Of a DNA stretch of 64,000 bases, positions 2,782 through 25,947 are shown piece by piece. Source of the DNA: Candidatus Halocynthiibacter alkanivorans (GTDB taxonomy: Bacteria; Pseudomonadota; Alphaproteobacteria; Rhodobacterales; Rhodobacteraceae); the NCBI RefSeq assembly GCF_003333265.1, contig NZ_QOLB01000143.1, positions 1 through 64,000 on the forward strand. Reading direction: 5' to 3'. Each line of letters begins with the position of its first letter. Within the stretch, counting starts at the first letter, position 1. The notes beneath the pieces were generated by a model that ran no database searches, was not told where the DNA came from, and worked only from the letters and a program-made list of their open reading frames with translations. A program made the position numbers and the translations under genes.

Positions 2782-2831
2782 TTTTAAACTCCAAGCAATT
2801 ATTAACACATCGCGGGCGCCCGCGCCGGGGT

Positions 2832-8603: not shown

Positions 8604-8608
8604 CCGCG

Positions 8609-9106: not shown

Positions 9107-9932
9107 TGCCAACGCTATCCCCGCCCGAAGCATCCGCCCCGGTCAACGGATCCATTTTCAGGCTGCGCAGGTCCATAAGCGCGGTGTCGCCCGCATCCGT
9201 GGCCAGCAGACGTTGCCCGAGACCGGCAAACGTGTCCTCGCCCAGATCGCGCCAGTCGGTGGCACGTGCCAGTTTCAGCCCATCCTTGTCCTGACTGGCG
9301 GTACCGGCATACCGCGTCGGGATCAGCGCCACGATGTTGCCGCCGTTCTGAAGCGTGATCGTCACCGGCGTCCACACCGTGTCGCGCAGGTCTTCGGGCG
9401 GCTCGGCTTCAAGTAAGGAAATCACCGAGAAGGGCATCCAGAAATATTTGCCGTTGACCACCACCTCAAGCATCGGCCCGAGCCGCATATCCGCATCTGC
9501 AATCCAGTCAAAGCGGGTGCCGTTCAATTCACCGCCCAGCGCCGGCGCGGCTTCAAACGCCTGGGTGCGCAATGCCGCGGCCGCGGCGGTATTGCCGCCG
9601 GCCTGGAGCTTGAGCGCCTCCACCAGCAGCGCCGTCCACGCCTGGGGTTCCCCAAAGATCAGCGGCTCTTTTTCGCCAGAAAAGACTTTCTCGCGATAGA
9701 CTTCGCAGATGATGCCTTCGCGGTAGGTCTGCGCCATCGGCACCGCCATCGCATCCAGTTCGCCGCAGAGTTTCAACTGGGTGATAGCGCGTTTCCAGTC
9801 GCCGAGAACACAAAGCAGCTGAAACAGGAAGATACGCAGTTTCGGGTCCGAAGCCCGCGCCCGGACCTGGGTCTGCAACGCGTCCAGCGTTGCGGCCAGA
9901 TCGCCGGATTTCAGATGCTCTTCTGCAGTCAT
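9099..9932 (-). CDS. tagJ: T6SS accessory protein TagJ/ImpE
   Basis: A 277-aa ImpE-family protein: an N-terminal TPR-like helical half (AEEHLKSGDLAATLDALQTQV) and a C-terminal half containing the ImpE block (FDWIADADMRLGP, GKYFWMPF). In Pseudomonas, TagJ binds the TssB N-terminal helix and modulates ClpV-driven disassembly. Its presence places the cluster with TagJ-containing T6SS types. The start at 9932 is preferred because GGGGGG lies 7 bases upstream; the frame is open 9 codons further up. Confidence 0.92.
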   Translation of the reverse strand: MTAEEHLKSGDLAATLDALQTQVRARASDPKLRIFLFQLLCVLGDWKRAITQLKLCGELDAMAVPMAQTYREGIICEVYREKVFSGEKEPLIFGEPQAWTALLVEALKLQAGGNTAAAAALRTQAFEAAPALGGELNGTRFDWIADADMRLGPMLEVVVNGKYFWMPFSVISLLEAEPPEDLRDTVWTPVTITLQNGGNIVALIPTRYAGTASQDKDGLKLARATDWRDLGEDTFAGLGQRLLATDAGDTALMDLRSLKMDPLTGADASGGDSVGNG

Positions 9933-10008
9933 ACATACCCCCCACCGGGTCCGGTTCACTCATAAATCCCGCGCAGGCATACCGCCCTGCGCGGGCTGGT
10001 CTGATCGC

Positions 10009-10533
10009 TCAGACGTCCATCGTTGCCTGGTTGGTGACGCGGCTCCACTGGGCCACTTTGGGCGCAGCCATTTCACCGGTGGCTTTTTGCTGGGAATATT
10101 CCACCCGGATGGCACCGTATTGAAAGATTACGGTTTCTTCGCAAATATCGTCGCCGTCAGACCCGGACCAGGAAATGTCCTGCACCATGACAAAGGCAAA
10201 CTTGAAGATCAGGAAGGGTTTGCCCGAGGCGCTGGCTTCACCGCTGGAGCGGCGCAGGTGAATTTCCAGGTCAGTGAAATGTTTGCCTGTCACCAGGTTG
10301 TGGAACAATCCCGGCGAGGCGGTGTCGGTTTTTTTGGTCACGGTAAATTCTTTGAACGTCGCTTTGCCGGCGCCGCCCCCGGCCGAGATGGACCCGATAT
10401 TGATGTTGTTTTCAGCGCCCAGCTCAAACGACAGGATTTCGAACGCTTTTTTATCTTTGTAAGTCGTGTCCTGGGTTTCGCCGGGTATCAGATCGCCCTG
10501 GCTTGGGGAGTAACAGAATGCATCGAATGACAT
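10009..10533 (-). CDS. hcp: T6SS tube protein Hcp/TssD
   Basis: A 174-aa Hcp-family protein (normal length) with the family's AFEILSFELGA, TVTKKTDTASP and EETVIFQYGAIRVEY stretches. Hcp hexamers stack into the inner tube that is expelled on contraction. The gene is separated from tssC by 85 bases that include a hairpin plus U-run (10556-10581), and from tagJ by 76 bases, so its mRNA level is probably set separately from the rest of the operon. Confidence 0.96.
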   Translation of the reverse strand: MSFDAFCYSPSQGDLIPGETQDTTYKDKKAFEILSFELGAENNINIGSISAGGGAGKATFKEFTVTKKTDTASPGLFHNLVTGKHFTDLEIHLRRSSGEASASGKPFLIFKFAFVMVQDISWSGSDGDDICEETVIFQYGAIRVEYSQQKATGEMAAPKVAQWSRVTNQATMDV

Positions 10534-10555
10534 GGTTCAGATCTCCAGTACTTGT

Positions 10556-10581
10556 AAAAACCGGCCCTATAGGCCGCGGTT
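10556..10581 (-). terminator. Hairpin plus U-run between tssC and hcp (likely attenuator)
   Basis: Read on the minus strand, AACC-GC-GGCC, loop TATAG, GGCC-GGTT is followed at once by TTTTT. The stem is 8 base pairs with a two-base bulge. It lies after the tssC stop and before the hcp start, so it could terminate part of the transcripts or protect an hcp-containing mRNA end. Confidence 0.55.
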
Positions 10582-10618
10582 GCAACAATAGACGCGCCGA
10601 GACAGCGCGCCTGCCTGA

Positions 10619-12118
10619 TCACCCTTTTTCGGTGGGCAATTTGGACACCAGACGGAGGGACACCGAGAGGCCTTCGAGCTGGTAATGAGGTTTGAGGAAA
10701 AACTTAGAGGTGTAATAGCCCGGGTTTCCTTCGACCTCTTCCACGACCACTTCTGCGGCCGCGAGCGGTTTGCGCGCTTTTTCCGATTCCGGCGAGGTAT
10801 CGGCGGTGAAATCAACATATTCGTTGATCCATTCCTGCAGCCAGTTCTGCATATCATCGCGCGATTTGTAGGAGCCGACTTTGTCGCGCACGATACATTT
10901 CAGGTAATGGGCAAAACGGCAGGTGGCGAAAAGATAGGGCAGCCGCGCCGCCAGATTGGCGTTGGAGGTGGCGTCCGGATCATTATATTCCGCCGGTTTA
11001 TGCAGCGACTGCGCCCCGATAAACGCCGCAACATCCGAGTTTTTGCGGTGGATCAGAGGCATCATGCCGTTCTTGGCCAGCTCGGCTTCGCGCCGGTCTG
11101 AAATGGCAATTTCGGTGGGGCATTTCATATCGACACCGCCATCATCGGTCGGGAAAGTATGCGAGGGCAGATTTTCCACCGCACCGCCGGATTCCACCCC
11201 GCGGATGCGGGAGCACCAGCCATATTCCTTGAACGACTTGTTGATGTTCACTGCCATGCCGTACGCAGCATTGACCCAGCCGTACTTGGTGGCATCAGTC
11301 CCGTCGGTGTCCTCTTCAAAGGCAAACGCCTCCACCGGATCGGTTTTGGCACCGTAAGGCAGACGGCCAAGGAAACGCGGCATCGCCAGGCCGACGTATT
11401 TGGAATCTTCGCTTTCGCGCAGGCTGCGCCAGGCGGCATATTCCGGGGTCTGGAAGATCTTGGTCAAATCGCGCGGATTGGCCAGTTCTGACCAGCTGTC
11501 CATCTGGAACAATTCGGGCTTGGCACCGGTAATCAGCGGCGCATGGGCGGCGGCGGCGATTTTGGACATTTCGCCCAGCAGCTCCAGGTCGGGCGGAGAG
11601 TGGTCAAAATGGTAATCCGCCACCAGGGTGCCATAGGGTTCACCACCGAACTGGCCGAATTCCTCTTCATAGACTTTCTTGAAGATCGGCGACTGGTCCC
11701 AGGCGGTGCCTTTGAATTTGCGCAGGGTTTTGTGCATATCCTTTTTGGAGATGTTCAGCACCCGGATCTTCAGCATCTCGTCGGTCTCGGTGTTGTTCAC
11801 CAGGTAATGCAGCCCGCGCCAGGCGCTTTCGAGCTGCTGGAACTCCGCATTGTGCAGGATCAGATTGACCTGTTCGGTCAGTTTCTGGTCGATCTGAGCC
11901 ACAATGCTTTCAATCGAGCGCAGCGCGTCATCCGAGATCAGGTCGGTGTTGACCAGCGCCTGTTCGGCAAGCGTTTTCACCGCTTGTTCAACGGCGGTTT
12001 TGGCCTGGTCAGACTTGGGGCGGAATTCTTTTTGCAGCAGGCTTTCAAATTCAGAAGAACCAAAGGCGGTTGCACCTTCGGCAGCGGTTTGCAGGTCGTC
12101 TGTGTCGCTATCTGCCAT
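10619..12118 (-). CDS. tssC: T6SS sheath large subunit TssC
   Basis: A 499-aa EvpB/VipB-family protein of normal length. Family blocks include FQQLESAWRGLHYLV, KIRVLNISKKDM, PYGTLVADYHFDH, RFLGRLPYG and the C-terminal LEGLSVSLRLVSKLP. With TssB it forms the cytoplasmic contractile sheath. It starts 2 bases after tssB stops, as usual for the pair. No second tssC is visible, although a second tssB is present at the left edge. Confidence 0.97.
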   Translation of the reverse strand: MADSDTDDLQTAAEGATAFGSSEFESLLQKEFRPKSDQAKTAVEQAVKTLAEQALVNTDLISDDALRSIESIVAQIDQKLTEQVNLILHNAEFQQLESAWRGLHYLVNNTETDEMLKIRVLNISKKDMHKTLRKFKGTAWDQSPIFKKVYEEEFGQFGGEPYGTLVADYHFDHSPPDLELLGEMSKIAAAAHAPLITGAKPELFQMDSWSELANPRDLTKIFQTPEYAAWRSLRESEDSKYVGLAMPRFLGRLPYGAKTDPVEAFAFEEDTDGTDATKYGWVNAAYGMAVNINKSFKEYGWCSRIRGVESGGAVENLPSHTFPTDDGGVDMKCPTEIAISDRREAELAKNGMMPLIHRKNSDVAAFIGAQSLHKPAEYNDPDATSNANLAARLPYLFATCRFAHYLKCIVRDKVGSYKSRDDMQNWLQEWINEYVDFTADTSPESEKARKPLAAAEVVVEEVEGNPGYYTSKFFLKPHYQLEGLSVSLRLVSKLPTEKG

Positions 12119-12120
12119 GC

Positions 12121-12645
12121 TTATTCACCGTCCTTTTCAGTGTCCTGATCTGCGCCCGGGGCCGGTTGTGCCGCCAGGGTTTTCAACAGGGTGGGATCCT
12201 GGATGATCTTGCCGATCAGGTCTTCCGCCCCGGTTTTGCCGTCCATATAGGTCATCAGGTTGGACAGTTCGGTGCGCGCCTCCAGCAGTTTGCGCAGCGG
12301 CTCAACGTTTTTGGCGATCGCCGCGGGTGAGAAATCATCCATGCTTTCAAAGGTGATATCCACCGCCATATTGCCCTCCCCGGTCAGGGTGTTGGGCACG
12401 GTGAAAGCGGCACGCGGCTTCATCGATTTCATCCGGTCGTCGAAATTATCGACGTCGATTTCCAGAAATTTGCGATCCGCGACGGCGGGCTGAGGTTCTT
12501 CGGATTTGCCGGAAAGATCGGAGATCACCCCCATCACGAACGGCAGCTGAACCTTTTTCTCGGCGCCATAAAGTTCAACATCATATTCGATCTGAACACG
12601 GGGCGCGCGATTGCGCGCTATGAATTTTTGTGAACTACCGGCCAT
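12121..12645 (-). CDS. tssB: T6SS sheath small subunit TssB
   Basis: A 174-aa ImpB/VipA-family protein of normal length. It has RVQIEYDVELYGAEKKVQLPF, FLEIDVDNFDDRM and LMTYMDGKTGAEDL, typical of the family. The N-terminal helix is the expected TagJ/ClpV contact. It is a close paralogue of the partial gene at 1-836 but lacks the long Ala-rich tail. Confidence 0.96.
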   Translation of the reverse strand: MAGSSQKFIARNRAPRVQIEYDVELYGAEKKVQLPFVMGVISDLSGKSEEPQPAVADRKFLEIDVDNFDDRMKSMKPRAAFTVPNTLTGEGNMAVDITFESMDDFSPAAIAKNVEPLRKLLEARTELSNLMTYMDGKTGAEDLIGKIIQDPTLLKTLAAQPAPGADQDTEKDGE

Positions 12646-12702
12646 TTAGAACTCCTCGTCTGAACATAGATTTACAAATCGCAAGCCGCCGGAGAGCGGT
12701 TG

Positions 12703-13728
12703 CTAGAACTCTTCCCGAATGCCTCCGATGCGCCGGACACTGTCCAGCGCCTCTGGCGCCATATCTTTGATGATCGCCATGAAATCGGCGCCAACCAGGC
12801 GTTTGGCGCGCAGCAGCAGCACCGGAACCGGACTCGCCGGTTCTTCGCGCTCATAATAGGCGACGATGCGGTCAATGGCGTTGGAGACGTCATTGGTCGA
12901 ATTGATCGCCCCCGGGACCGATGCCGCAGCCATTGCAACGGCTGGTGCCGCCCCTGCCGGGCTCCCGTCTTCTGCGGTGCCCTCCTCAACTTCGACCTCA
13001 AGCCCGCTGTGTTGCTGCAATTTTCCGGTGATCTGTTTCAGGGTCTTGACCAGTTCGTCCAGATCCGGCCCCTGGCCGGGCAGCTCCTCGTCAAACTTTG
13101 CCGAAATCGCCGCCGCGCTGGCCTGCGCCGCAACTGCAGCAGCCAGCCCCTGGCTCAGATACTCATCATCAGTGTCCTGAAACGCCGCCGAAACACTGGC
13201 GGTATCAGGCACGTTGTCCATTTTCGCCGGCGCGGCGATTTCGCCTTCGGCAATGTTGATATCGCGCAGGGACAGCTTGCCAAAGGTGCGGCTGTCGGTG
13301 AGCGGCGCCAGCCGCAGCGCCCGCAGGATGGTATCGCGGTCCGCCAGCGCCTGCACCGCGTTGACGCGCATCGTCGGGTCACCGTCATCTTCATCCAGCT
13401 GTGGATGGCAACTGTCCCAATACTGATCGAGACAGCCCTGAATATACTCCAGCACGCCGGCAAACCCGGTGAGCCCCTCAAGCCGCAGAGTGGCGCCGGC
13501 CAGGTAGACTGCCGCGCGCAGATCATTGCTACGCTCCAGCACCTCAACGGCCTTGGCGGAAATCTCGCGGAAATCAGGGTCTTCGGCCGCAAGGATCTCC
13601 TCCCCCGCCTGACGTTCTTCGCCAGGCTGGGCCACGATTTCAAGCTCGGTAAAAACCGGATCGTACTCAAGGTTTTCACCGCTTGGAGCATCGTCACTGT
13701 GGCTTTTCAGCAGCGACAGAATTTCCAT
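12703..13728 (-). CDS. tssA: T6SS assembly protein TssA (ImpA N-terminal domain)
   Basis: A 341-aa ImpA/TssA protein. The N-terminal DDAPSGENLEYDPVFTELE block is diagnostic for the ImpA_N domain; the middle is Ala-rich and the C-terminus helical. TssA caps the growing sheath-tube or primes the baseplate. The start at 13728 is chosen because TTAGGGGGCCAA precedes it; the frame is open a further 58 codons upstream, but that part is not TssA-like. It is the first gene of the T6SS operon, with an AT-rich region ahead of it. Confidence 0.92.
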   Translation of the reverse strand: MEILSLLKSHSDDAPSGENLEYDPVFTELEIVAQPGEERQAGEEILAAEDPDFREISAKAVEVLERSNDLRAAVYLAGATLRLEGLTGFAGVLEYIQGCLDQYWDSCHPQLDEDDGDPTMRVNAVQALADRDTILRALRLAPLTDSRTFGKLSLRDINIAEGEIAAPAKMDNVPDTASVSAAFQDTDDEYLSQGLAAAVAAQASAAAISAKFDEELPGQGPDLDELVKTLKQITGKLQQHSGLEVEVEEGTAEDGSPAGAAPAVAMAAASVPGAINSTNDVSNAIDRIVAYYEREEPASPVPVLLLRAKRLVGADFMAIIKDMAPEALDSVRRIGGIREEF

Positions 13729-14040
13729 TTGGCCCCCTAACAAATTCAGGCAATCTAATTGGATATCAGTAATTAAACCAACGGTAGCATATACGTTGCG
13801 CAAATCTATAAATCTTTTTTTAATGGTTTGATTTCCCGGAAAATTGAGGGCTTGACCCAATGCGGAACTTCTCGTTTTCTGGCAATATTGCCCGGGCCGC
13901 ACCTGATGCGCCCCTGTTAGACCCGTTGAGATGCCGGCCTGAAGAACAGCCCCTGACTGTCCGCTTTCGTAAGTTCTGAATCGCGCACAGCCCTGGTTTT
14001 ACTGTTCCGGACCGCAAAACAAGCAGATAAGGAGACACCT
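13729..14040. promoter_or_regulatory. Divergent intergenic region between tssA and the exbB-exbD block
   Basis: About 310 bases without a credible gene, clearly more AT-rich than its surroundings near 13740-13860. It must hold the T6SS operon promoter (minus) and the promoter of the gene at 14041 (plus). A possible minus-strand sigma70-like pair (TTGGTT, 17 bases, TTAGAT) lies near 13750-13780 and a plus-strand TTGACC is at about 13852; both are weak matches. Confidence 0.4.
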
Positions 14041-14466
14041 ATGCGGCAGATGAGCAGAGGCGCGGTGGCGCTGATTTTGGCGCTGTTCAGCGCCGCCCCG
14101 GTACTTTCGGCAGAGGGCCGGCTGACGGTGGAGCTGAACAAGTTTGAGCAGGATGAAGGCGGCGGCTGCCGGGCATTTTTCCTGTTCCGCAATCAGACTG
14201 GCCTGACGCTGGAAGGATTTGAAATGTCCTTGGCAGTGCTAAACACTCAGGGGGTGATTGACCGGTTGTTATCCATTGATGCCGCGCCACTGCCGGCAGC
14301 GCGGACCACGTTGAAATTGTTTGAAATTCCAGAAACTGCCTGCGGTGACATTTCTGAAATTCTACTGCATGATATTCCCAGTTGCAGACCGCAGAATGAG
14401 GCCGAGACCGATTGTTTTGCGCTGATTGATCTGGACAGCAAAACCAGCGCCGCATTGGTGAAATAG
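14041..14466 (+). CDS. Secreted protein of unknown function, first gene of the exbB-exbD block
   Basis: A 141-aa protein with a clear signal peptide (cleavage probably after VLSA, residue 24). The mature part of about 115 residues looks beta-rich and has four cysteines (43, 101, 115, 125), enough for two periplasmic disulfides. AAGGAGACACCT precedes the ATG. It ends 3 bases before exbB, so it is probably the first gene of the same transcript. I do not recognise a family; a periplasmic partner of the ExbBD complex or a chaperone-like beta-sandwich is possible. Confidence 0.75.
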   Translation: MRQMSRGAVALILALFSAAPVLSAEGRLTVELNKFEQDEGGGCRAFFLFRNQTGLTLEGFEMSLAVLNTQGVIDRLLSIDAAPLPAARTTLKLFEIPETACGDISEILLHDIPSCRPQNEAETDCFALIDLDSKTSAALVK

Positions 14467-14469
14467 ATC

Positions 14470-15087
14470 ATGTTGCGCAGTTATGCAGAGAGCCTTGGCA
14501 CCGCCGGTCCGATCATCCTTATCCTGCTGCTCTTATCGCTTCTGTCCCTGGGGCTGATCGTGGCCAAGACCATGCAGCTCTGGTCCTGCCGCTCTGGAAA
14601 GGAGCTGCGCGAGTTGGCGCTGGACCAGTGGCGCGATGGCGAGCACGCCGCGGCGGTGGCGACGCTTCGGGCGGGAAAATCGCCGGCCGACCGGGTGGCC
14701 GCCTTTGCGGCACAGGGGCTGGTGGACGGCATTGAGCGCCAGGATCTCGAAGGCGAGCTGACCAGGCGCGGCAATGAGGAGCTTGATGAAATGAACCGGC
14801 ATATCCGCCTGCTGGAGCTGGTGGCGATGATCAGCCCGCTTTTAGGCCTCCTCGGCACGGTTCTGGGGATGATTCAGTCGTTTCAGGAGCTGGAACTGGC
14901 CCAGGGCGCGGCCAATGCCTCGCTTCTGGCGGGCGGTATATGGCAGGCGCTGCTGACCACCGCCGCCGGCCTGGTCGTGGCGATCCCCGCCGCCATCGGC
15001 GCCACGTTGCTGTCTGCGCGAATTGAGGGCGCCGGACAAATGATTGAAAGCGCGGCGGGGCGGATGCTGATGAGCAAAAGCCGCTAA
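14470..15087 (+). CDS. MotA/TolQ/ExbB-family proton channel protein
   Basis: A 205-aa protein with three predicted membrane helices: residues ~14-33, then ISPLLGLLGTVLGMIQSF and WQALLTTAAGLVVAIPAA. The last two are the conserved ExbB/TolQ pore helices. With ExbD it forms an inner-membrane channel that converts proton (in some relatives sodium) flow into mechanical work on a periplasm-spanning partner. A cytoplasmic loop lies between helices 1 and 2. It is followed by two exbD genes and a TonB-like gene, giving a complete energising unit. Confidence 0.9.
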   Translation: MLRSYAESLGTAGPIILILLLLSLLSLGLIVAKTMQLWSCRSGKELRELALDQWRDGEHAAAVATLRAGKSPADRVAAFAAQGLVDGIERQDLEGELTRRGNEELDEMNRHIRLLELVAMISPLLGLLGTVLGMIQSFQELELAQGAANASLLAGGIWQALLTTAAGLVVAIPAAIGATLLSARIEGAGQMIESAAGRMLMSKSR

Positions 15088-15156
15088 GTCCCGCGCGCCC
15101 CGCGTGGCCACGTCGCGCAACGGCGCCAGTCCGCAAGCAGAGGAGCAGATTCCGCT

Positions 15157-15591
15157 ATGGAACTCAGACGATCCCGGCCGCAAAAGACGCTGATTTCGCT
15201 GGTGCCGATGATCGACGTCATGTTGATATTGCTGGTGTTTTTCATGGTGACCTCCACATACCTGGATCTGGACATCATCCCCACGGTTGAACAATCAGAG
15301 GAGCGCGCACCAGAGGATCCGGCGCCGCCGACTGCAGGGGCGCAAGCGGCCGTGAACACGTTGCTGGTGCGGATATCTCCTGCCGGCGATCCGGTGATCC
15401 GGGGCCAGAGCCTGTCCGTCGCCGGGCTGATCGCGCGCGTTGAGGAGGCTCAGACGCAACAGGCAGGACTGCAGGTTCTGGTACTGCCCTCGGGTCAGGC
15501 GACGCTGCAGGCACTGGTTTCGGTGGTGGATGCGCTGACCCGGGCCGGCGTGCAGCGCCTGCGGGTGATTCGCCTTGAGGTCGCGCCATGA
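15157..15591 (+). CDS. ExbD/TolR-family protein (first copy)
   Basis: A 144-aa single-pass inner-membrane protein: a basic N-terminus (MELRRSRPQKT), then the ExbD helix PMIDVMLILLVFFMV with the essential Asp in IDV, then a ~100-residue periplasmic domain with the TolR-like fold pattern. It works with the ExbB protein encoded 69 bases upstream. Its stop overlaps the start of the second exbD (ATGA), so the two are made together. Confidence 0.9.
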   Translation: MELRRSRPQKTLISLVPMIDVMLILLVFFMVTSTYLDLDIIPTVEQSEERAPEDPAPPTAGAQAAVNTLLVRISPAGDPVIRGQSLSVAGLIARVEEAQTQQAGLQVLVLPSGQATLQALVSVVDALTRAGVQRLRVIRLEVAP

Positions 15592-15995
15592 AGCTGCGCC
15601 GCAACCGGCAAAGGGTCGTGCCCGAAACCATTGTGGCGCTGATCGACGTGGTGTTTTTCCTGCTGGTGTTTTTCATGCTGATCGGGCGGATGGACGCCTC
15701 ATCGCCGTTTGAAGTGGCGCCGCCGCTGGCGCTCAGCGGTGCCGATATGCCTGCCGGCGGTGTCACCGTGTCGATTGGCCAGGACGGTGCCCTGGCGCTC
15801 GACGGGTTTGCGACAGACCGTGCCGCGGTGCTGGCCGGGATAAGCGCCCGGCTTGACGTCAGCCCACAGCTGCTGATCCGGATCAACGCCCATAAAGACA
15901 CCGCTCTGAGGCGGGTGATGCCACTGATCAGCGCGATCGAAGCGCTGGGGGCACAAAACGTCGCCCTGGTGGTCACCCCGGCGCCGCTGCCATGA
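15588..15995 (+). CDS. ExbD/TolR-family protein (second copy)
   Basis: A 135-aa paralogue of the preceding gene: basic N-terminus, helix TIVALIDVVFFLLVFFMLI with the conserved Asp, and a periplasmic domain with INAHKDTALRRVMPLISAIEALG, the usual ExbD C-terminal pattern. Two different ExbDs after one ExbB suggests a heterodimeric ExbD in the pore. Overlaps the next start by 4 bases (ATGA). Confidence 0.9.
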   Translation: MKLRRNRQRVVPETIVALIDVVFFLLVFFMLIGRMDASSPFEVAPPLALSGADMPAGGVTVSIGQDGALALDGFATDRAAVLAGISARLDVSPQLLIRINAHKDTALRRVMPLISAIEALGAQNVALVVTPAPLP

Positions 15996-17902
15996 CGCTG
16001 GCACCGCGCATATGGCTGAGCGCTGCCGGCGTCTCTGTCGCGGTACATGTGGCCGGGTTTTTCCTGCTGCCACTGTCCGTGACGCCAGAGCCGGTGCCGG
16101 ATCAGGAGATGCCGGAGTCCCGCCTCGACATCAGCGCTTATCCGGTGGAGCAAAGCCAGGCCCAGGTGGCAGAGCCCGAGGTTGAAAGCAGCCAGCCGGG
16201 AGAGTTGCGCCCGGCAACAGCGGCACAGTACGGCGTGCCGCAATCCCGCTCTGAGGCGCTGAGCCCCGATGCGGAGACGCTGAACGCCAGTGCCGCGCCG
16301 GCGGAACAGACATCAGTGACACCTCCGTCGGGCACACGTTTGAGCAACAGGCCGGCCGCGGCAGAGGCGCTGACAGCAAGTGCCGCCCCGCTTGAAAACC
16401 TGACTGCATCCCGCGCGCGCCCACAGGTGCTGACAGCCACGGCAGCGACCGGGGCGGACGGCCAGGCGGCGCTGTCACTGGAGGCGGAGGAGGCACTGGC
16501 CAGCCCCCTGCCCGGCGGCGCCCAACTGCGTGACAGCGCGATGCAGTCTGAGCGACTGAGCGAAGGCGCCATGCTGCCCGAGCGATTGAATGACAGCGCA
16601 GTGCAGCCCGAGCGGCTGGCGGACAGCGCCGTGCAGCCCGAACGGCTGATGGACAGTACCGTACAGCCAGAGCGGCTGGCGGACAGCGCAGTTCAGCCCG
16701 AAATGTTGATGGACAGTACCGTGCAGACCGAACGGTTGATGGAGAGCGCCGCGCAGCCCGAGCGGTTGGCAAGCCAGGCCAGTCGCGCGGATGCTCTGAT
16801 GGCGGAACAGGTCGCACCCGAGGCGCTGATGGCCGCAGCCGCCCGCGCGGAACGCCTGGCAGCGGCGGCAGTGCCCCGTCGCACCGCCGCGCCGGCAGCT
16901 TTGAACGCTTCGGCACTGCCTGCGGCGACGCAAAGCGGCAGCCGGCTGGACAGCCGTGCGCCCGCTGCAGAGCCGGCGCGCCGTCAGGATGCCAGCGGCG
17001 TGGCTGCTACCAACAGCGCCGCCGCCGTGACTGCGCGGCTGAGCGATCTGCCACCGCCGTCTGAGCGCGGCCGTGCCACCCTGGCCTGGAGTGGTGAGGA
17101 CGGCACGGTCGACCCGGTGTCGCTTGCGGCGATCCAGTCCTTTATGCGCCCCGGCGATCTGGCCGGATCCGAGAGCAATGCCGGTTCAGTGCGGGACGGT
17201 ATCGCGGCGTTTCTGCAATCGGTGCCCTGCGCCCGCATTCAGGCGGCGTTTATTCCGGAAACAGGGTCTCTGGAGCTGCGCGGCCATATCCCTGAGAACG
17301 GGCTGCGCGGCCCGGTTCTGAGCGCACTCCAAGAGCAGATCGGAGATGCGATCCCGGTGACCGACAATCTGTTGATCTTGCCGCGACCACAGTGCGGCGC
17401 GCTCAGCGGCATCGCCGGTGTCGGGCTGCCGCAATCCACTGACCAGGACAGCGACGAACGCCTGGTCGGGCCGGATGCCCATGCCCGCGCCTATGATTAC
17501 AGCGAAGGCCAACGGCTGAGTTTCGATCTGTCGGCGCCGGATTATGACGCTTATCTCTATGTCGATTATTTTGACGCCGAGGGTCAGGTGCTGCATCTGG
17601 TGCCCAACGAGATTGTCGGGCTGGAAAAGCTGGACGCCAAAACCACCATCGGCATTGGTAAGGAACGTGTCGGATTTCCGTCGCTGTCGATCACGGTGGG
17701 GCCGCCCTTTGGCCAGGAAATCGCGGTGGCCTTTGCCGCCTCCACGCCGCTTTACGACGGGCTGCGGCCGATCCGCGAGCCGGCAGAACCCTATTTGACC
17801 TTCCTGAAAGACCGGGTGGCGCGGGCGCGGGCACTGGACAGTGAATTTAAGGGGGAATGGGTCTATTTTTTCATCACCACGGCGCCGGCGCCGCTGAACT
17901 GA
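15992..17902 (+). CDS. TonB-like periplasm-spanning protein with decapeptide repeats and DUF4384-like C-terminus
   Basis: A 636-aa protein. The N-terminal membrane anchor has S15-x3-H19 (SVAVH) within a hydrophobic helix, the pattern that TonB uses to contact ExbD. A Pro/Ala/Glu-rich linker follows, then twelve tandem 10-residue units (181-300, consensus DSAVQPERLA; degenerate units begin near 127). After that comes a ~50-residue BON-like stretch with two Cys (about 408-470), and a C-terminal domain (about 500-636: LSFDLSAPDYDAYLYVDYFD, GQVLHLVPN) resembling DUF4384. It lacks a recognisable TonB C-terminal domain. It probably transmits ExbBD-driven movement across the periplasm to an unknown target. 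Translation is coupled to the second exbD. Confidence 0.8.
   Translation: MTLAPRIWLSAAGVSVAVHVAGFFLLPLSVTPEPVPDQEMPESRLDISAYPVEQSQAQVAEPEVESSQPGELRPATAAQYGVPQSRSEALSPDAETLNASAAPAEQTSVTPPSGTRLSNRPAAAEALTASAAPLENLTASRARPQVLTATAATGADGQAALSLEAEEALASPLPGGAQLRDSAMQSERLSEGAMLPERLNDSAVQPERLADSAVQPERLMDSTVQPERLADSAVQPEMLMDSTVQTERLMESAAQPERLASQASRADALMAEQVAPEALMAAAARAERLAAAAVPRRTAAPAALNASALPAATQSGSRLDSRAPAAEPARRQDASGVAATNSAAAVTARLSDLPPPSERGRATLAWSGEDGTVDPVSLAAIQSFMRPGDLAGSESNAGSVRDGIAAFLQSVPCARIQAAFIPETGSLELRGHIPENGLRGPVLSALQEQIGDAIPVTDNLLILPRPQCGALSGIAGVGLPQSTDQDSDERLVGPDAHARAYDYSEGQRLSFDLSAPDYDAYLYVDYFDAEGQVLHLVPNEIVGLEKLDAKTTIGIGKERVGFPSLSITVGPPFGQEIAVAFAASTPLYDGLRPIREPAEPYLTFLKDRVARARALDSEFKGEWVYFFITTAPAPLN
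16532..16861 (+). repeat. 30-bp coding tandem repeats (decapeptide units)
   Basis: Eleven to twelve in-frame 30-base units, best conserved at 16592-16770 (GACAGCGCAGTGCAGCCCGA-like core). They encode DS(A/T)VQPERL(A/M) units; later copies drift to Ala-rich sequence. Regular length with no frameshifts argues for selection on the protein. Confidence 0.9.
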
Positions 17903-18104: not shown

Positions 18105-19643
18105 CTAACTGCAGCCGCCATCGGCCCAGCGTTTCAGGCTTTGCTTAAAGGTGCCACCCAGCGGGTGTTCTTTGCTCAGGGCGCGTTGATTGTTCATGCC
18201 GAGATAAAACTTGCCCTGGTCACAGAGCGCTTCGCGGGTCCAGGCATGGCAATTGGCGCAGGTTTTGGTTTTCCAGAAGGCTTCCGGCAAACCTTCGACC
18301 GGTGCGAACAGCGGCGTCAGCTTCACAACGTCCGCAATGGTTTTGCCAACGATTTCCGGAGCGCCAAATGTCAGAACGGTATCAAAGTTGATCACCTGCC
18401 CCGCACCCGGCCCGGCAGGAGCGGCGGGCGCGGTGGCGGTCTGCGTGCTGTCCGGCTCTGTCGCGACGGTCGACGGGGTGGCGGCAACAGCGGCGGCCTG
18501 GCTGGCGGCTTTTTGCTCGATCACGGAGATTTCAAACCTGGCAAGTTCGGCATATGCCCCGTCGGGAAAAGCGGCGAGGTAGGCCTGGTAGTCCACGATT
18601 TCACCAGAGGCCTGCGCCAGGCCGATCAGCTCGCGTTCACGGTCTGCGGGCGCGAGAATTGGTGGCGGCGCCGGAACGGCAACAACCGGGGCGGCTGCGG
18701 TCCCACTGCCAGCCCCGCCACTGAGTTCTTTCTGCATGATCTGCGCCAGAAGTGCGCGGGCTTCATCGACGAAAGCGCTGTCGGGATAGGCGCGCAGGAA
18801 CAGCATGATCTGCACCGGGTCGCGGGTCTGGTTCAGCGACTGCCACAGCTGCGCGTCGGCGATTTCTGCCCCGGACTGCACTTCGGCCTGGACAAAATAG
18901 AAATCCGCTGTCAGCGAGGAGGCATCCCAGGGCGTCTGCATACCGTTGGTGGTTTTCAGCACTGCGTTGCGGACCTGTTTGAACATTTGCTCAATCGGCA
19001 CGCCAGGGCTGGAGATCGCCGACGCCAGTGCGGCGCTGAACGGGCTGTTGCCGTCTAGCCCGTCAAGGGCCACGGCACCGGGTGCGGTGGAATAGGACAG
19101 GAAGGTGCCGGTCGGGGACTTCATCTCGGCCAGCCCGTTGTCATCCATGTCCTGCACGTTTTCAAACGGGTTGTTGCGGCAGGCGTCCAGGATCACAATA
19201 TTGGTGCGGTTGCGGGCGGAATTCATCTGGCGCAGCACTGACTGCGCCTCGATTGCCACCAGATCGAGATCTGCCGCGTCGGTAAGTTCAACATCGACCG
19301 GGATCATATAATTGGTGCCAAACGACTGCACGCCGTGGCCGGCGTAATAAAACAGGCCGGTGGCCTCAGGGCCTGCGGCGCGCAAGTCGCGGCCAAATTG
19401 AGCAATCGCGCGTTTCAGCATGACCTGGCTGGTATCCGTCCTCAGCGTCACTTCAAAGCCGGACTGTTCGAGGCTGGCAGCGATCAGCGTGGCATCCGAG
19501 ACCGGATTGTCCAGCTGCGGCACGCTGGCATAGGCGCCGTTGCCGACGACGAGGGCGATCCGGACCTGGGCGCTGGCAGCGCTGACGGCAGCTGCGGCCA
19601 GCCACAGGCTCAGCAAAAAAGTCACGATTTTGAAAATTGGCAC
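18105..19643 (-). CDS. Secreted caspase-family (C14) protease with C-terminal CxxCH motif
   Basis: A 512-aa protein with signal peptide (cleavage near SAASA, residue 25). Residues ~27-250 form a caspase p20-like domain: RIALVVGNGAY start, catalytic His103 in YYAGHG and catalytic Cys155 in ILDACRNNP. Middle repeats resemble TPR/Sel1-type helices (FLRAYPDSAFVDEARALL; YLAAFPDGAYAELARF). A Pro/Ala/Thr linker leads to a ~95-residue C-terminal domain containing CANCH (462-466), the motif that binds haem c, with further Cys at 474 and 511. Bacterial caspase homologues are mostly orthocaspase- or metacaspase-like, preferring Lys/Arg or acting in signalling. Last gene of the minus-strand block, 153 bases after the YceI-OmpA gene. 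Confidence 0.88.
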   Translation of the reverse strand: MPIFKIVTFLLSLWLAAAAVSAASAQVRIALVVGNGAYASVPQLDNPVSDATLIAASLEQSGFEVTLRTDTSQVMLKRAIAQFGRDLRAAGPEATGLFYYAGHGVQSFGTNYMIPVDVELTDAADLDLVAIEAQSVLRQMNSARNRTNIVILDACRNNPFENVQDMDDNGLAEMKSPTGTFLSYSTAPGAVALDGLDGNSPFSAALASAISSPGVPIEQMFKQVRNAVLKTTNGMQTPWDASSLTADFYFVQAEVQSGAEIADAQLWQSLNQTRDPVQIMLFLRAYPDSAFVDEARALLAQIMQKELSGGAGSGTAAAPVVAVPAPPPILAPADRERELIGLAQASGEIVDYQAYLAAFPDGAYAELARFEISVIEQKAASQAAAVAATPSTVATEPDSTQTATAPAAPAGPGAGQVINFDTVLTFGAPEIVGKTIADVVKLTPLFAPVEGLPEAFWKTKTCANCHAWTREALCDQGKFYLGMNNQRALSKEHPLGGTFKQSLKRWADGGCS

Positions 19644-19796: not shown

Positions 19797-20909
19797 TCAG
19801 TTGTTCAGCACCGAGAATTCAATGCGGCGGTTGCGGGCCTTGTTGGCACGGCTGTCATTGGGCGCCACCGGGCGGGTCTCTCCATACCCGGCGACCACAA
19901 AAGCGTCCGGTGACATGCCTTTGTGGGTGAGGAATTCGGCGACCGATGCGGCGCGGCGCACGGACAGGCGCTGATTGGTGGCGTCAGAGCCGTCACTGTC
20001 AGTATGGCCGGCAATTTCAATGCGCAGACCAGGGCAGCGCGAAACGATGTCAAACAGGGTTTCCAGCAGCGGCGTTGAATTTGCATTCAGCCGGGCGCTG
20101 GCGGGGCCAAAATTGATGTTGCCGGTGCGCGACAAGATTTCAAAACGACCGATACAGGCTTCAAGGCTGAAGTTACCGGTCGTTTCCAGTGCGGCCAGCG
20201 CCGGTTTGACGGGCTCAGCGGCGACCGGCGGCGCGGTGGTGGGCGCGGTTGTGGTCCCGGCGTCGGTGTTTTTGCCAAACAGCAGATCAAAGGTCACCGC
20301 GCCCGACGGCACCAGTTTCACATTGGCAGCCGCTTCCAGTTTCGCCACCCCTTCCATCAGGGCAAAATCCGCTGCGGCAATGGTCACCGGCGCCGAGGAG
20401 GACACCGCCACCAGATCGTCGGTGATCAGGGTCAGCGCCACTTCGGTGCTCAGTTCGCGTTTGACGCCGTGCAATTCGAGCGTGAAGGGCAAGGTCAGGA
20501 TCTTGCGCCGCACCTGCGGCAGGTCCTCCACCATTTCGCGCGTCAGCTGCAACTTCAGCGTGGCTTCGGGATAGAGAAAGGTTTCAAAAAACAAAAACCG
20601 CATGCGCACGTTGCGCAGGTCAATTTTGGTATCGACGGAATCGAGCAGCACTTTCAGTTCGGCGCGGCCCAGACTGTCGATACTGCCGGAAAAACTGGCA
20701 AAGGAGCTGGATTCCACTTTTGTCTGGTTTTTCACCGACTGAAAGCGCAGCGCCGAACTGCCTGGCTGCAAGACCCAGCCACCGGCAAAAGGGTTTTCCT
20801 GCGCGCGCAGCGGCGCCACAGTCGCCAGGGCGGCGGCCAGGGTCAGCGCGGCGCCCAGGGTGAATTTACGCAAAAAAGACAGGGTTTTCCCGGGATACAG
20901 ATCCATCAT
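19797..20909 (-). CDS. YceI-like / OmpA peptidoglycan-binding fusion protein
   Basis: A 370-aa exported protein (signal peptide ending near PLRAQ, residue 37). Residues ~42-215 have a YceI-like beta-barrel pattern (WVLQPGSSALRFQSVKNQ, FTLELHGVKRELS). After a Thr/Ala/Pro linker, residues ~245-370 form an OmpA C-terminal domain (IEIAGHTDSDGSDATNQRLS, VVAGYGETRPVAPNDS, NRRIEFSV), which binds peptidoglycan. The start overlaps the stop of the 869-aa gene (ATGA), linking it to the three large proteins. It probably anchors part of this system to the cell wall. Confidence 0.88.
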   Translation of the reverse strand: MMDLYPGKTLSFLRKFTLGAALTLAAALATVAPLRAQENPFAGGWVLQPGSSALRFQSVKNQTKVESSSFASFSGSIDSLGRAELKVLLDSVDTKIDLRNVRMRFLFFETFLYPEATLKLQLTREMVEDLPQVRRKILTLPFTLELHGVKRELSTEVALTLITDDLVAVSSSAPVTIAAADFALMEGVAKLEAAANVKLVPSGAVTFDLLFGKNTDAGTTTAPTTAPPVAAEPVKPALAALETTGNFSLEACIGRFEILSRTGNINFGPASARLNANSTPLLETLFDIVSRCPGLRIEIAGHTDSDGSDATNQRLSVRRAASVAEFLTHKGMSPDAFVVAGYGETRPVAPNDSRANKARNRRIEFSVLNN

Positions 20910-23515
20910 ACCTTTTCGCTTTCTGCTTTGATCAGAGGTTGCAGTGTCTCAGCATTCACCCGCAGCACTTCGCGGCGCTGCAATGTCGCCCGCGCCACCA
21001 GGGTTTTGATATAGCTGTCCATTTCAGCATGTGCCTTGTTTTCCTCGTCCTTTGCTTTGTAGGGCTTGAGCGCTTTGATCAGCCCGGTGATCGCGTCCTC
21101 GGCGCTCTTGAGCACCGCCGGATCCGGCAGGGTCTTGTCCTTGCCGGCCGCCGCGACCGCCGCATCCCAGGTCGATTTGTTGCTGTCCCAACTGGCGAGA
21201 TCCGCCTTGATGCGGCCAACGTCCGAGGCGGCAACAAGCGGGTCGGCTTTGCTGGTGGCTTTCAGGTAGAACAGGCAGAAACTGGCATAGGTGAGCTCGA
21301 TGTCACCGGGGTGCCAGTCATTGTCGATGCCGACCGCATGCATGATCACCGGGTCCTGGTCGTACATCTGCTCCAGATAATCGACCACCTTGCTGACATT
21401 GGTGTCGGCCTGGGCGAGGGTGCGGTCGTTCAGCCCGCAGCGGTTCATCGCCATTTTCGCCATGGCGTTACCTTCGACCACCGCTCCGTAGGCCATGGCG
21501 TACTTGGACAGGGTCGGGTTTTTGCGCAGCGCCTGACGCGCCAGTTTGCGGTTTTGCGGGTTGGCCAGAGCGTCTTTGTAGATTTTCCAGGCCTCACGCG
21601 CCTGCACATTGTCGGCGATGGCGACGCCAAGATCGATGGCCGCCTCGGCGACATCGGCGCCGGCGGAAATCGCCAGACCGATCGGCGCGGCGGGTGACAG
21701 GGCGGTGGCCTGCCCCGCGACTTTCACCGCTTTCACCCCGACTTTGATATCGGCGATAATGTTTTGTTTTCCTTCCAGATTATAGCGGCTCATCATCGCG
21801 TCCAGCTGCACTGTGGCGGCTTTGCCGGTGGCTTCAACAATGCCCATCCATTTTAACATTTGCTGGGCGCGTTTCACCGCTTCGGCGATAGAAAAGGCCA
21901 GTTCGGCGCAGGCCTGGACCAGGCCCATACCGGGCACCAGATCGGCGATCAGCCCGGGGCCTTTGGTGGCGATTTTTTCCGCCAGAGCGAAGATCTTTTT
22001 GTCCCGCGCCATGATCGCAATCAGGTTTTCAATCGACTCCATACGCCGTTGTTCGGCCTCGGCAATGGCTTCGGCTTCGCTGGTCGGGGGCGGAAATCCG
22101 GTGGAGAGCACCTCGGCAAACATCGCGTCATCGCGTTCCATCATCACCCGCAAAGTCTCTTCCTGGGCGCGGGCGGCTTTGAAGTCCTCCGCCGCCTGCA
22201 GATCCTTCAGCTTTTGCAGGCTTTCCGCGGTGATCGGGGCACGGCGGTCCTTGTCGCCCTCGCGGATTTCATTGCCCTCTTCAGCGACTTCTTTGGCGAA
22301 GCTGAGGATTTCGATGGTTTTGTTCACCTCAGGCGAGTTGATTACCCCAGCGATTTCACCGATGGCGATTTCCAGCGCTTTGCCCGGCTGCGGCGGATCG
22401 GCCCGCAGCGCATCCAGCACTGCTTTGCCGGTGATGATCTTGCCAAAGATCGAATTGATCTCTTTACCGCTGTCGGCCAGCGCCTTGTCGCCGGTGCTGC
22501 CCAGCGCAGATTCGATGGCGTCGCCAAGGTTGGTGAACGCGCCCTCCAGATCGCCATCGGCGAGCGCTTTGCCCATGCCGGCGCTGCGGGCACTGGCGGT
22601 GACGATACCGGTGACCATGTCGGCGACATTCTGATCCACACCACCGGCCTTCAGCGCCGCGCCCAGCATGGTGTTGCAGATGTCGACAGCTTTAATCGCG
22701 TCGCGTTCTTTGACCACCGTTGGCACCAGGGCGCAGGTCGAGGTAAACACCACATTGACCAGCTCCAGCACCTCGCCAGCCTCTTTGGCGTTGGTCAGAA
22801 CCTGGGCGTTTTTAGTGACCTCAGCGATGCTGCCGGCAAAGCCGGCTGATGACGCCGCCAGATTGATCACCTTACCGCCGATGTCCGCCACGATACCGAA
22901 TTTGGCCAACAGTTTGTCAGTGCCATCCAGCCCGGCGGAATATTCCTGCAGCCGTTTGTCATATTCGTCAGAGGCGGCGTTAAAAGTCTGCACCACTTCG
23001 GAATAATCGTCGGGGATGAAGTTTTCCGGGATGATGCCTTCGCGCATCAGGGGCTGCCAGAGGTCACGGGCGATGCGGTCTTTGTACTCTTTCATCGCCT
23101 GTTCTTCCTCATAGCTGGGGAAGTCAGGGTCCTCCATTCCGGGCTTTTTATAAAAGTCCAGCGCCTCCATTTCGCGTTGAATATCCATGATTTTCTGCAC
23201 TTGAGCTGTCAGCAACTTCAGCTTGGCCGGATCAATAGATTTGGCGTCTTGCAGATCAGCCCAGCTGTCCACTTCGCGCAGCGGATCGCCCTTGGCAAAA
23301 TCCAGCAGCGGCATCGGCTTGCTGCCGTCGGTATATTCCACTGTGATCGCCCGGAATGCGTTTTGCATCTCCAGCAGAGCCGCCGGGTCGAGCTGTTGCT
23401 CAATCAGCGCCATGCCTTCCTCGCGACTGGCGAAGTCCGTGTCCGCCTGCGCCAGGCTGGCCTCGATATTGCCAACCGCATTGACCCAGGTCACTTGTTT
23501 GTCTGTTAAAGCCAT
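20906..23515 (-). CDS. Large protein of unknown function with Gly/Ala-rich hydrophobic segments
   Basis: An 869-aa protein without a signal peptide. Mostly charged helical sequence, but with three Gly/Ala-rich, moderately hydrophobic segments (about 206-233, 520-548 and 597-635) that could insert in or associate with membranes. I recognise no domain. It is translationally coupled to the YceI-OmpA gene downstream and begins 8 bases after the 807-aa gene ends, so it is part of a four- or five-gene operon next to the T6SS. Possible roles: a large effector, a structural part, or a cytoplasmic scaffold. Colicin-like or pore-forming activity is only a thought based on the hydrophobic segments. Confidence 0.8.
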   Translation of the reverse strand: MALTDKQVTWVNAVGNIEASLAQADTDFASREEGMALIEQQLDPAALLEMQNAFRAITVEYTDGSKPMPLLDFAKGDPLREVDSWADLQDAKSIDPAKLKLLTAQVQKIMDIQREMEALDFYKKPGMEDPDFPSYEEEQAMKEYKDRIARDLWQPLMREGIIPENFIPDDYSEVVQTFNAASDEYDKRLQEYSAGLDGTDKLLAKFGIVADIGGKVINLAASSAGFAGSIAEVTKNAQVLTNAKEAGEVLELVNVVFTSTCALVPTVVKERDAIKAVDICNTMLGAALKAGGVDQNVADMVTGIVTASARSAGMGKALADGDLEGAFTNLGDAIESALGSTGDKALADSGKEINSIFGKIITGKAVLDALRADPPQPGKALEIAIGEIAGVINSPEVNKTIEILSFAKEVAEEGNEIREGDKDRRAPITAESLQKLKDLQAAEDFKAARAQEETLRVMMERDDAMFAEVLSTGFPPPTSEAEAIAEAEQRRMESIENLIAIMARDKKIFALAEKIATKGPGLIADLVPGMGLVQACAELAFSIAEAVKRAQQMLKWMGIVEATGKAATVQLDAMMSRYNLEGKQNIIADIKVGVKAVKVAGQATALSPAAPIGLAISAGADVAEAAIDLGVAIADNVQAREAWKIYKDALANPQNRKLARQALRKNPTLSKYAMAYGAVVEGNAMAKMAMNRCGLNDRTLAQADTNVSKVVDYLEQMYDQDPVIMHAVGIDNDWHPGDIELTYASFCLFYLKATSKADPLVAASDVGRIKADLASWDSNKSTWDAAVAAAGKDKTLPDPAVLKSAEDAITGLIKALKPYKAKDEENKAHAEMDSYIKTLVARATLQRREVLRVNAETLQPLIKAESEKV

Positions 23516-23523: not shown

Positions 23524-25947
23524 CTAAATACTGGTAAGAACGTCATATTCGATGGAATTCAGTGCCTGCACGACCGGTGTGGCGATGCCGTTCACCGAAA
23601 ATGGATTGGTCGCGGCGCGTTTAACGCCGTCGTTATTTTTGAGAAAATCGCGGTAGAGGCGCACCGTTTTTAAGGCCTGTTCGCGGTTGCGTTTGCGCAG
23701 AGCAGCATCGTTGCCAGACACTTTGAGCACCTCCATCGACGCATCAAAGGCGGTTTTTTCCAGCTTGCCACTGATCAGGACCATCGCCGCAAGACCCTTG
23801 TTCAGTTTCGTCAGTTCGCCCGCAGGCAATTCGCTGGCGTCACTGCTGACCTTTGTCTGCAACTCCTGAAATTTGGCGGTGAAATTGTCGATCTGGCGCA
23901 CCCAGTTGCCCGGAATATTGCCAAGATTTTCAAAACTGTCCTTGGCGCGTTCCTTAATCTTCAGTTCTTCATCCAGGCGGAACTTCACCCGCGACAGGAT
24001 CGCCTCTGCGGCTTCAAATTCACCAGCTTTGGCCTGGGGGATGCCAGCTTTGTTGTAGTCCAGGATGCTTTGATATTCCTGGGTCTTCGCCTTGTCCTTG
24101 CTGTCGGAAATCAGCTTTTCCAGCATCTTGTCGGCCAGTTTGCTGGCCTGGGTATAGTGTTCCAGCTGACGTTCGGTGGCTTCACGCGCTTCCACCCCGG
24201 CCTTGTGATCGTTGAGCATGCCCATCACCGCACTCATGTCCCCGGACGTCGGCGCCTGGCCTGCATCGGCCGCGGCACGCAGCTTGTCGGCTGAGCCCAG
24301 CCAGTTGATAATCTTGGCCTGCAGCTGGTCCAGTTTTTTGTCCGCCGGGCTTTGATAACTGATGTCTTCAGTGCTGATCCAGCCGCGTATGGTGGTGAGA
24401 TCTTCGCGCATGGAGCCCTCATATTTATCGCCGCCCATGCCGAATTTTTCCCGCATGAATGTGGCGAAACTGCCGTGATCATCCTTGCCAAAATCAAAGA
24501 GCGCTTTGGACAGGTCGTTGACCTTCTTCTCCAGTTCGTCGGCGCGTTTAGCGGCGATTTTGCGCCAGGCCACCTGGTCTGTGACCGTTTTGGCGAAGGT
24601 GTCACAGCGTTTTTTCAGACCCTCAAAGGCGCTGGCGGCCTTGTCTGGCGACAGGCTTAACCAGCTGTCATGCAGGGAATTGAATTCATTCTTCAGCTCG
24701 GTAAACTCGGCCGGGCGGGTTTGCGAATTCAGTTTATTGTTGGCGCCGCCGGGCTTGCCTAGCACCTCTGATATGGCATCGATACATCTGCTCGTGGTGG
24801 TATTTATGACCTCAAAATGCGCCAGTTCGTCCAAAAGCGTATTGGCCCGCGCCAGAAAGCCCTCCATCGGGGCAAGCGCGCCGATGTTTTTACCGCCAAG
24901 CAGGGTTTGTTTGGCGATATCAATCAGGTCCTGCAATTGTTCGCGCTGTTGCGGCGGCACCGATTTGTCGATGCCTGCCAGGCTGTTTTCGATTTTGAGC
25001 AGGGTGTTCTGGTGTTTGGTCGCCTCCAGATCAAAGGCATCAGCGATCGATTTGTGCTCCGCATCGACCTGCTTGCGCCAGTCCTCCAGCGCGGTGATGC
25101 CGGTGGTGTAATCTACCGCAGCAAACGCTGTGGTGGAGATTTTGAACAACTCCTTCTGCCTGGCGTCTGCCTCGGGATAGCCCCAGCGCTCCAGTTCAGC
25201 GAGGCGCAGCCGACAGTCTTCACTCAGGCGCAGGAATTCGGGTTTCTTCTCCAGGCTGGCGAACAGATCAACGGCGGAGTTTTTCACACCGCGCGATTCA
25301 ATCAACAGCGTCTCGGCGGCGGCGGTGAAATCGTCATAAACTTTCTGCATTTGCGCGATCACCGCATCGGCATTGCCAACGCCATTGATTTCCAGCGTGC
25401 TGATATCCTCGACTGCCTGATTCAGAGCCGTATTATACTTGCCCTCGACGGCGTCTTTGGCGTCCTTGCCAAGGCCTTTTGCCGCAGCGATATCCTGGTC
25501 TGAGGCCAGCTTCATCAGCTCACCCAGGGTGCGTTCAAATTCGCCCGACGCTTCAAGCGCGCGGTTCTCAAGCTTGCCGTGGAGCCGTTCGCGGGCTTTG
25601 GTTTTAAGCCCTTTCTCGCTTTCGCTCAGCTTATTGTCGCGCAGTTGGGCATTGATGTCTTCAAGCAGGGTTGCGAGCACTTTGGCGCTCTGAATAAAAT
25701 CACCTTTGGTTGAGGTCTCGGACTGAATTCCCTGCGCGCGGATATCATAAAGGTAGTGGCCCTGGCCGCCTTTGAGCGTGGCCAGGGCATTTTCCACGTC
25801 TTTGCTGAGGTTCAGATAGGCTTCATAGCCCTCAATCAGCGCCATATTGGCTTTTGATTTCCGCCTCTTACCGCTGAACATGCCGCGTTTTTCAAAGTAA
25901 CTGTAGATAAATTTCTGCTGGTTATTATTCAGGTCTTCCCAAGGCAT
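23524..25947 (-). CDS. Large coiled-coil-type protein of unknown function
   Basis: An 807-aa protein, no signal peptide and no membrane segment. Almost entirely charged, Leu/Ala/Lys/Glu-rich helical sequence with repeated heptad-like stretches, so long coiled coils or helical bundles are likely. It starts MPWEDLNNNQQKF after GAGGG on the minus strand. It sits between the proline-rich 591-aa gene (23-base gap) and the 869-aa gene (8-base gap). No family recognised. The composition resembles the 352-aa protein at 1723-2781, but I see no convincing alignment by eye. Confidence 0.8.
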   Translation of the reverse strand: MPWEDLNNNQQKFIYSYFEKRGMFSGKRRKSKANMALIEGYEAYLNLSKDVENALATLKGGQGHYLYDIRAQGIQSETSTKGDFIQSAKVLATLLEDINAQLRDNKLSESEKGLKTKARERLHGKLENRALEASGEFERTLGELMKLASDQDIAAAKGLGKDAKDAVEGKYNTALNQAVEDISTLEINGVGNADAVIAQMQKVYDDFTAAAETLLIESRGVKNSAVDLFASLEKKPEFLRLSEDCRLRLAELERWGYPEADARQKELFKISTTAFAAVDYTTGITALEDWRKQVDAEHKSIADAFDLEATKHQNTLLKIENSLAGIDKSVPPQQREQLQDLIDIAKQTLLGGKNIGALAPMEGFLARANTLLDELAHFEVINTTTSRCIDAISEVLGKPGGANNKLNSQTRPAEFTELKNEFNSLHDSWLSLSPDKAASAFEGLKKRCDTFAKTVTDQVAWRKIAAKRADELEKKVNDLSKALFDFGKDDHGSFATFMREKFGMGGDKYEGSMREDLTTIRGWISTEDISYQSPADKKLDQLQAKIINWLGSADKLRAAADAGQAPTSGDMSAVMGMLNDHKAGVEAREATERQLEHYTQASKLADKMLEKLISDSKDKAKTQEYQSILDYNKAGIPQAKAGEFEAAEAILSRVKFRLDEELKIKERAKDSFENLGNIPGNWVRQIDNFTAKFQELQTKVSSDASELPAGELTKLNKGLAAMVLISGKLEKTAFDASMEVLKVSGNDAALRKRNREQALKTVRLYRDFLKNNDGVKRAATNPFSVNGIATPVVQALNSIEYDVLTSI

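Follow-up and report, generated by a model that had tools for sequence, protein, structure and literature searches.

Gene organization and protein architecture

The window, that is the whole stretch of 64,000 nucleotides analysed here, contains a gene for an exported protein in which a caspase-type protease is followed by a helical linker and a C-terminal domain with a CxxCH motif (Table 1). It is the last of five genes on the same strand, in the order 595-aa protein, 807-aa protein, 869-aa protein, YceI-OmpA and caspase, with gaps of 23, 8, -4 and 153 bp, and tss genes of a type VI secretion system (T6SS) are present nearby. The first-pass annotation, made from the sequence alone, had thus correctly placed the gene at the end of an operon beside a T6SS.

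The open reading frame begins with GTG, and no in-frame start lies further upstream in the open frame. The predicted Sec-type signal peptide ends in ...AASAQ, and the relatives counted as similar have a hydrophobic stretch and an A-x-A/G site ahead of the caspase domain. Assignment of the protease half to C14 is supported by the PF00656 profile, the caspase fold and the His103-Cys155 dyad; the paracaspase MALT1 is its best match both in sequence (E 8.5e-15) and in fold (E 1.5e-17). Asp70 and Asp153 align with Asp residues of MALT1 which we take to line its Arg-selecting S1 pocket, and cleavage after Arg or Lys is therefore predicted. The open frame, the Pfam match and the predicted signal peptide agree with what had been claimed from the sequence, an exported C14 protease with intact His103 and Cys155. 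The C-terminal domain, estimated at about 95 residues with a CANCH motif and two further cysteines, was found to have 96, the additional cysteines being Cys474 and Cys511. Apart from these two, the protein contains only Cys155, C462 and C465, and exactly five cysteines, the catalytic one and four in the CxxCH domain, are found in 78 of 81 mature relatives.

Table 1. Features of the caspase-CxxCH locus, in window coordinates
Feature	Position	Strand	Basis
Exported caspase-CxxCH protein, 512 aa	18105..19643	(-)	ORF and Pfam
Predicted Sec-type signal peptide, residues 1-25	19569..19643	(-)	Sequence; similar in 79/94 relatives
Caspase (C14) domain, residues 28-249	18897..19562	(-)	Pfam PF00656, E 2.3e-35; MALT1 paracaspase closest solved sequence and fold
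Catalytic His103 (GTG=1)	19335..19337	(-)	Sequence; kept in 29/30 relatives
Catalytic Cys155	19179..19181	(-)	Sequence; kept in relatives; Asp153 before Cys155 aligns with Asp of MALT1 LLDMCRK motif
BamD/YbgF-like helical repeat linker, residues 256-388	18480..18878	(-)	Weak TIGR03302 match, E 0.09; helices in model
C-terminal CxxCH domain, residues 417-512 (96 aa)	18108..18395	(-)	110 distinct relatives; model pLDDT 90
C462-A-N-C465-H466 motif, putative haem c attachment site	18246..18260	(-)	CxxCH invariant 110/110
His493 of HPxGG motif, candidate sixth haem ligand (putative role)	18165..18167	(-)	His-Pro invariant 110/110
Obligate partner, exported YceI-OmpA fusion, 370 aa	19797..20909	(-)	PF04264, E 8e-12, and PF00691
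869-aa helical protein, 4 bp overlap with partner gene	20906..23515	(-)	Local to source genome
807-aa helical protein, same run	23524..25947	(-)	Local to source genome
T6SS genes tssH,G,F,E,tagJ,hcp,tssC,B,A	2832..13902	(-)	Pfam/NCBIfam; tssF by plasmid synteny
Hyp141-ExbB-ExbD-ExbD-DUF4384, Tol/Exb-like energiser	14041..17902	(+)	Pfam; same order in most T6SS-linked relatives

Conservation and distribution of the CxxCH domain

The CxxCH domain alone was used as a query, as the first-pass annotation had proposed, against one genome per genus of the window's family, wider samples, 84,980 named species genomes and plasmids, and 126 copies were gathered, 110 of them distinct. A hit in genome G108 was left out of the counts as marginal (28% identity over 71 residues, with an internal stop). 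All 110 distinct copies are identical at C46, C49, H50, W52, C58, Q60, H77, P78, W90 and C95 of the domain, which in the window protein are the CxxCH motif, W468, C474, Q476, H493 and the Pro after it, W506 and C511, and the last Cys is followed by only one or two residues in every copy. This conservation of the CxxCH motif is far beyond chance, and the lack of CxxCH conservation in homologues that the first-pass annotation had named, along with absent haem binding, as refuting its reading is thus not what is found. Hosts with named records belong to the Rhodobacterales and to Roseibium/Stappia (Stappiaceae), and Mesorhizobium plasmids add a further alphaproteobacterial family; in phylum-wide sampling the domain was found in Alphaproteobacteria only, and the viral contigs searched contained no relative. 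In Pfam and NCBIfam no family matches the 96-aa domain, and scans of 31 of its members gave just a few scattered hits, none in more than three members, which were taken as chance. The C-terminal domain is real, undescribed and invariant at these positions.

An obligate YceI-OmpA partner

The neighbouring gene of the run encodes a fusion of a YceI domain and an OmpA domain of the peptidoglycan-binding type; the latter bears out the cell-wall-binding neighbour of the first-pass annotation, in which the YceI domain had been missed. Among 295 genomes, one per genus of the window's family, full-length YceI-OmpA and the CxxCH domain are found in the same 31 (31/31 versus 0/264, Fisher p about 1e-42); G161 and G078 were left out of the YceI-OmpA counts, as their hits cover the OmpA part only. 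Of 80 named loci, 76 have the two genes side by side, mostly on opposite strands and sometimes co-directional, as in the window, and the four exceptions comprise two loci at contig edges, one with an apparently split partner gene (L099) and one with an odd 1035-aa fusion (L056, see below).

Both the YceI profile and the homology to solved YceI proteins identify the partner as a YceI lipocalin. Its closest solved relatives are 2x32/2x34, the X158 domain of Saccharophagus (E 2e-18), and one X158 structure held ubiquinone-8 (PMC8981238). Judging from this homology, the partner's barrel probably holds a quinone or a similar isoprenoid lipid. Cbp2D of Cellvibrio combines an X158-type domain in one chain with two CxxCH c-type cytochrome domains, one of them shown with covalent haem and an extra disulfide (PMC8981238), and in other systems cytochrome b561 is fused or otherwise linked to YceI lipocalins, which shield lipids from peroxyl radicals (PMC9113575); thus, YceI has been joined to haem proteins in independent systems. 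The link to YceI-OmpA is a more important clue than the earlier functional guesses.

Retention and loss of the caspase domain

The caspase domain is present in 96 of the 110 distinct copies (about 87%), one of which (L123) has a broken frame. Four copies form a pseudo-caspase clade with a degenerate region, where L075 lacks both His and Cys, L062 lacks His, and L017 and L067 retain both in an altered context. The domain is absent from ten copies, nine small exported proteins, one of these with an SH3-like N-terminus, and L056. On the tree, which is weakly rooted and based on a short alignment, six changes of the caspase label are needed, at least four of them on well-supported branches. With the exception of L056, all caspase-less and pseudo-caspase forms adjoin a YceI-OmpA gene, and their CxxCH domain stays invariant. 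Since a dead or missing caspase leaves the CxxCH domain and the partner in place, the core function of the module is not proteolysis; it is these two that make up the core, with the protease as an output retained by most lineages. There, proteolysis is under selection, given that the caspase is retained in 96/110 and is the best conserved part of the protein (67% identity to the window, with 51% for the CxxCH domain and 38% for the poorly conserved linker between them).

In Mangrovicoccus ximenensis (L056, positions 7175-10279), the CxxCH domain terminates a 1035-aa adhesin-like open frame, which may be a real domain swap or a misassembly and was given no weight. In addition, extra caspase genes without a CxxCH domain occur in or near some loci (L009, 14122-15660; L128, 10645-12579 and 16396-17922; L127, 1992-3449), some of them beside M15 peptidase and Ser/Thr kinase-phosphatase T6SS genes.

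Genomic setting

The TssB sheath gene was detected in 27 of the 31 genomes carrying the CxxCH domain and in 44 of the 264 non-carriers (p about 4e-15). No T6SS was detected in the remaining four carriers, and as one of them, G124, is a single-contig genome, the association is strong but falls short of obligate. The arrangement met most often has DUF4384-ExbD-ExbD-ExbB-Hyp and tssA-H after the pair. T6SS or Exb genes lie within 10 kb of live caspases in 50 of 72 named loci; where the caspase is dead or absent, this holds for 0 of 8, kinship being ignored in this comparison. Ser/Thr kinase/phosphatase T6SS loci are found nearby in Mesorhizobium and Ruegeria. The cluster of ExbB-ExbD-ExbD and DUF4384 is complete and Tol/TonB-like, with DUF4384 at the C-terminus, and is a conserved neighbour of such T6SSs.

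The giant helical proteins of the run, which had been read as context indicative of a role, have no homologue within 10 kb of the 80 relatives' loci and were rejected as part of the module. Neither has a Pfam match, and the plasmid search returned one weak relative of the 869-aa protein, in Qingshengfaniella, and none of the 807-aa protein. The 807-aa protein has a weak ESAT-6-like NCBIfam hit (E 0.001), below cut-off.

Other observations concern the T6SS itself. At the contig edge (window 1-862, minus strand) lies part of a giant protein with full-length relatives elsewhere (e.g., L141 6232-9849, 1205 aa); many such T6SS loci encode a giant protein (frames of ~1050-1780 aa) about 10 kb from a normal TssB, with two TssB/VipA-like matches and annotated as sheath large subunit, which has VgrG and PAAR as neighbours on a Leisingera plasmid. 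At its end, the tss operon also has a voltage-gated-type ion channel (window 836-1726, minus strand, PF00520, E 6e-39) and a 361-aa protein with no assigned function (window 1723-2808, minus strand), and Leisingera and Parasedimentitalea plasmids have an ion transporter and a hypothetical protein at the equivalent position.

Interpretation

The CxxCH domain most likely binds one covalent haem c. A CxxCH motif in an exported protein, as is characteristic of c-type cytochromes, is found here in the form of the invariant motif and the predicted signal peptide, with invariant His493 as candidate distal ligand and no invariant Met. The obligate YceI/CxxCH pair raises the haem reading above the bare motif, because such a pair is expected of a quinone-haem couple. 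The domain has no significant match to the class I cytochrome c family in Pfam or NCBIfam and is therefore called a probable haem domain, not a cytochrome. The PDB fold comparison of its model, from which haem is absent, gave no match, and similarity to solved cytochromes was not detectable. A match to cytochrome c555 in the PDB profile search was local to the CxxCH motif, with a score raised by three repeats (E 42 or worse with a single repeat), and was discarded. Zn binding or two disulfides would account equally well for the invariant set of four Cys and two His.

It is thus conceivable, and in our judgement somewhat unlikely, that the domain is a docking domain stabilised by disulfides or zinc, not haem, which ties the protease or helical repeat to YceI-OmpA at the peptidoglycan or outer membrane. 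The exact co-occurrence of the two proteins fits plain docking too, the four invariant Cys can make two periplasmic disulfides, and the haem-free model is confident and shows no likeness to cytochromes. However, neither the His that directly follows CxxC nor the His-Pro further on, both invariant, is needed for a disulfide pair, and CxxCH in an exported alphaproteobacterial protein is the normal substrate of cytochrome c maturation. Moreover, the YceI-type partner recurs with haem proteins (PMC8981238, PMC9113575).

The reading that we prefer, tentatively and short of calling it probable, is an obligate envelope module of a peptidoglycan-anchored YceI quinone lipocalin and a haem c CxxCH protein, with the paracaspase-like protease as gated output. 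The caspase-CxxCH protein would be the effector half of this two-protein module, whose probably lipid-carrying half is anchored to peptidoglycan through its OmpA domain. The single haem would have His466 as proximal and possibly His493 as distal ligand, Cys474-Cys511 would be a stabilising disulfide, and the haem domain would exchange electrons with the YceI lipid or dock on it. In most lineages, the CxxCH protein bears the exported protease, whose activity might change with redox or lipid conditions in the outer envelope or when the anchored complex is disturbed (e.g., by T6SS puncture); envelope puncture related to the T6SS or oxidative stress would be the likely trigger. The make-up of this module, which many marine alphaproteobacteria carry, usually beside a T6SS, suggests an envelope protease responsive to damage or redox state. 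That its activity depends on redox is made more plausible by the YceI domain of the obligate partner, which is closest to the ubiquinone-8-binding X158; we know of no relative of the caspase-CxxCH protein with redox or gas dependence. The narrower proposal, a haem c-caspase fusion read via the quinone-binding, peptidoglycan-anchored lipocalin, so that the protease is switched by envelope redox or lipid state, is rather doubtful, and control of a protease is not the universal role of the module, given the caspase-less forms.

These forms also speak for a quite improbable alternative, in which the CxxCH protein pairs with YceI-OmpA for electron transfer or antioxidant protection of outer-membrane lipids, the caspase fold being a mere tether or minor addition that haem does not regulate. 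YceI-OmpA adjoins the ten copies without a caspase and the four with a dead one, except L056, and YceI-cytochrome b561 systems counter lipid peroxyl radicals (PMC9113575), but the caspase is retained in 96/110 and is better conserved than the CxxCH domain (67% vs 51%). Finally, the suicide, defence or effector-processing role first suggested for the gene, or that of a T6SS-linked effector, agrees with the T6SS statistics and the kinase/phosphatase loci described above, but has no direct support and is very improbable, as the predicted signal peptide puts the protein in the producer's own periplasm, the loci examined show no immunity gene and no VgrG/PAAR or Hcp fusion (neither effector marker nor immunity gene nor absence of a Sec signal was found), four carrier genomes including G124 have no detected T6SS, a defence-island context was not seen, and the module persists without a live caspase.

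To our knowledge, hardly anything is known of what exported bacterial caspases do. As the caspase is tied here to a partner with a putative quinone ligand and to an invariant CxxCH domain, regulator and sensor are both directly testable, and the natural caspase-less and dead-caspase variants set the sensor apart from the output. If haem is bound, the system would offer a defined example of a caspase-fold protease under redox control.

Comparison with known systems

The module, with its undescribed domain, its two obligately paired envelope genes and the caspase as output, is built from known kinds of parts. Literature on caspases with YceI, a cytochrome domain or a T6SS contained nothing about the caspase-CxxCH/YceI-OmpA module. 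With bacterial orthocaspases and MALT1 (C14), the window protein shares the caspase fold, the His-Cys dyad and the Asp before the active-site motif, whereas it is exported, fused to a CxxCH domain and has an obligate YceI-OmpA partner. The EACC1-type conflict systems also have a caspase variant in an obligate two-gene unit, but with a single-TM membrane protein and mostly in multicellular bacteria (PMC7159879); membership was rejected, since the NF047832 score is 59.6 against a cut-off of 140 bits and the partner is YceI-OmpA, not the EACC1 TM protein. A metacaspase survey of 2012 counted OmpA domains in 14 metacaspase operons, but mentions no haem, cytochrome or type VI link (PMC3501461).

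On the partner side, Cbp2D/Cbp2E of Cellvibrio and X158 of Saccharophagus are among the closest known systems (PMC8981238), X158 being the nearest solved relative of the partner's YceI domain. In the Cbp2D type, YceI is joined to the CxxCH domains X183/X132, X183 having the covalent haem and extra disulfide, but in a single protein with carbohydrate-binding modules and a distal Met in X183, and without caspase, OmpA or T6SS (PMC8981238). BcnA-LcoA likewise couples a periplasmic YceI lipocalin tightly, at the genetic level, to a haem protein, which is however an inner-membrane b-type cytochrome, with neither caspase nor OmpA anchor (PMC9113575). If haem is bound, the module would be a third kind of YceI-haem coupling, and if its protease were indeed switched through the lipocalin, it would parallel, in a single protein and by independent origin, the link between cytochrome c and caspases in animal apoptosis.
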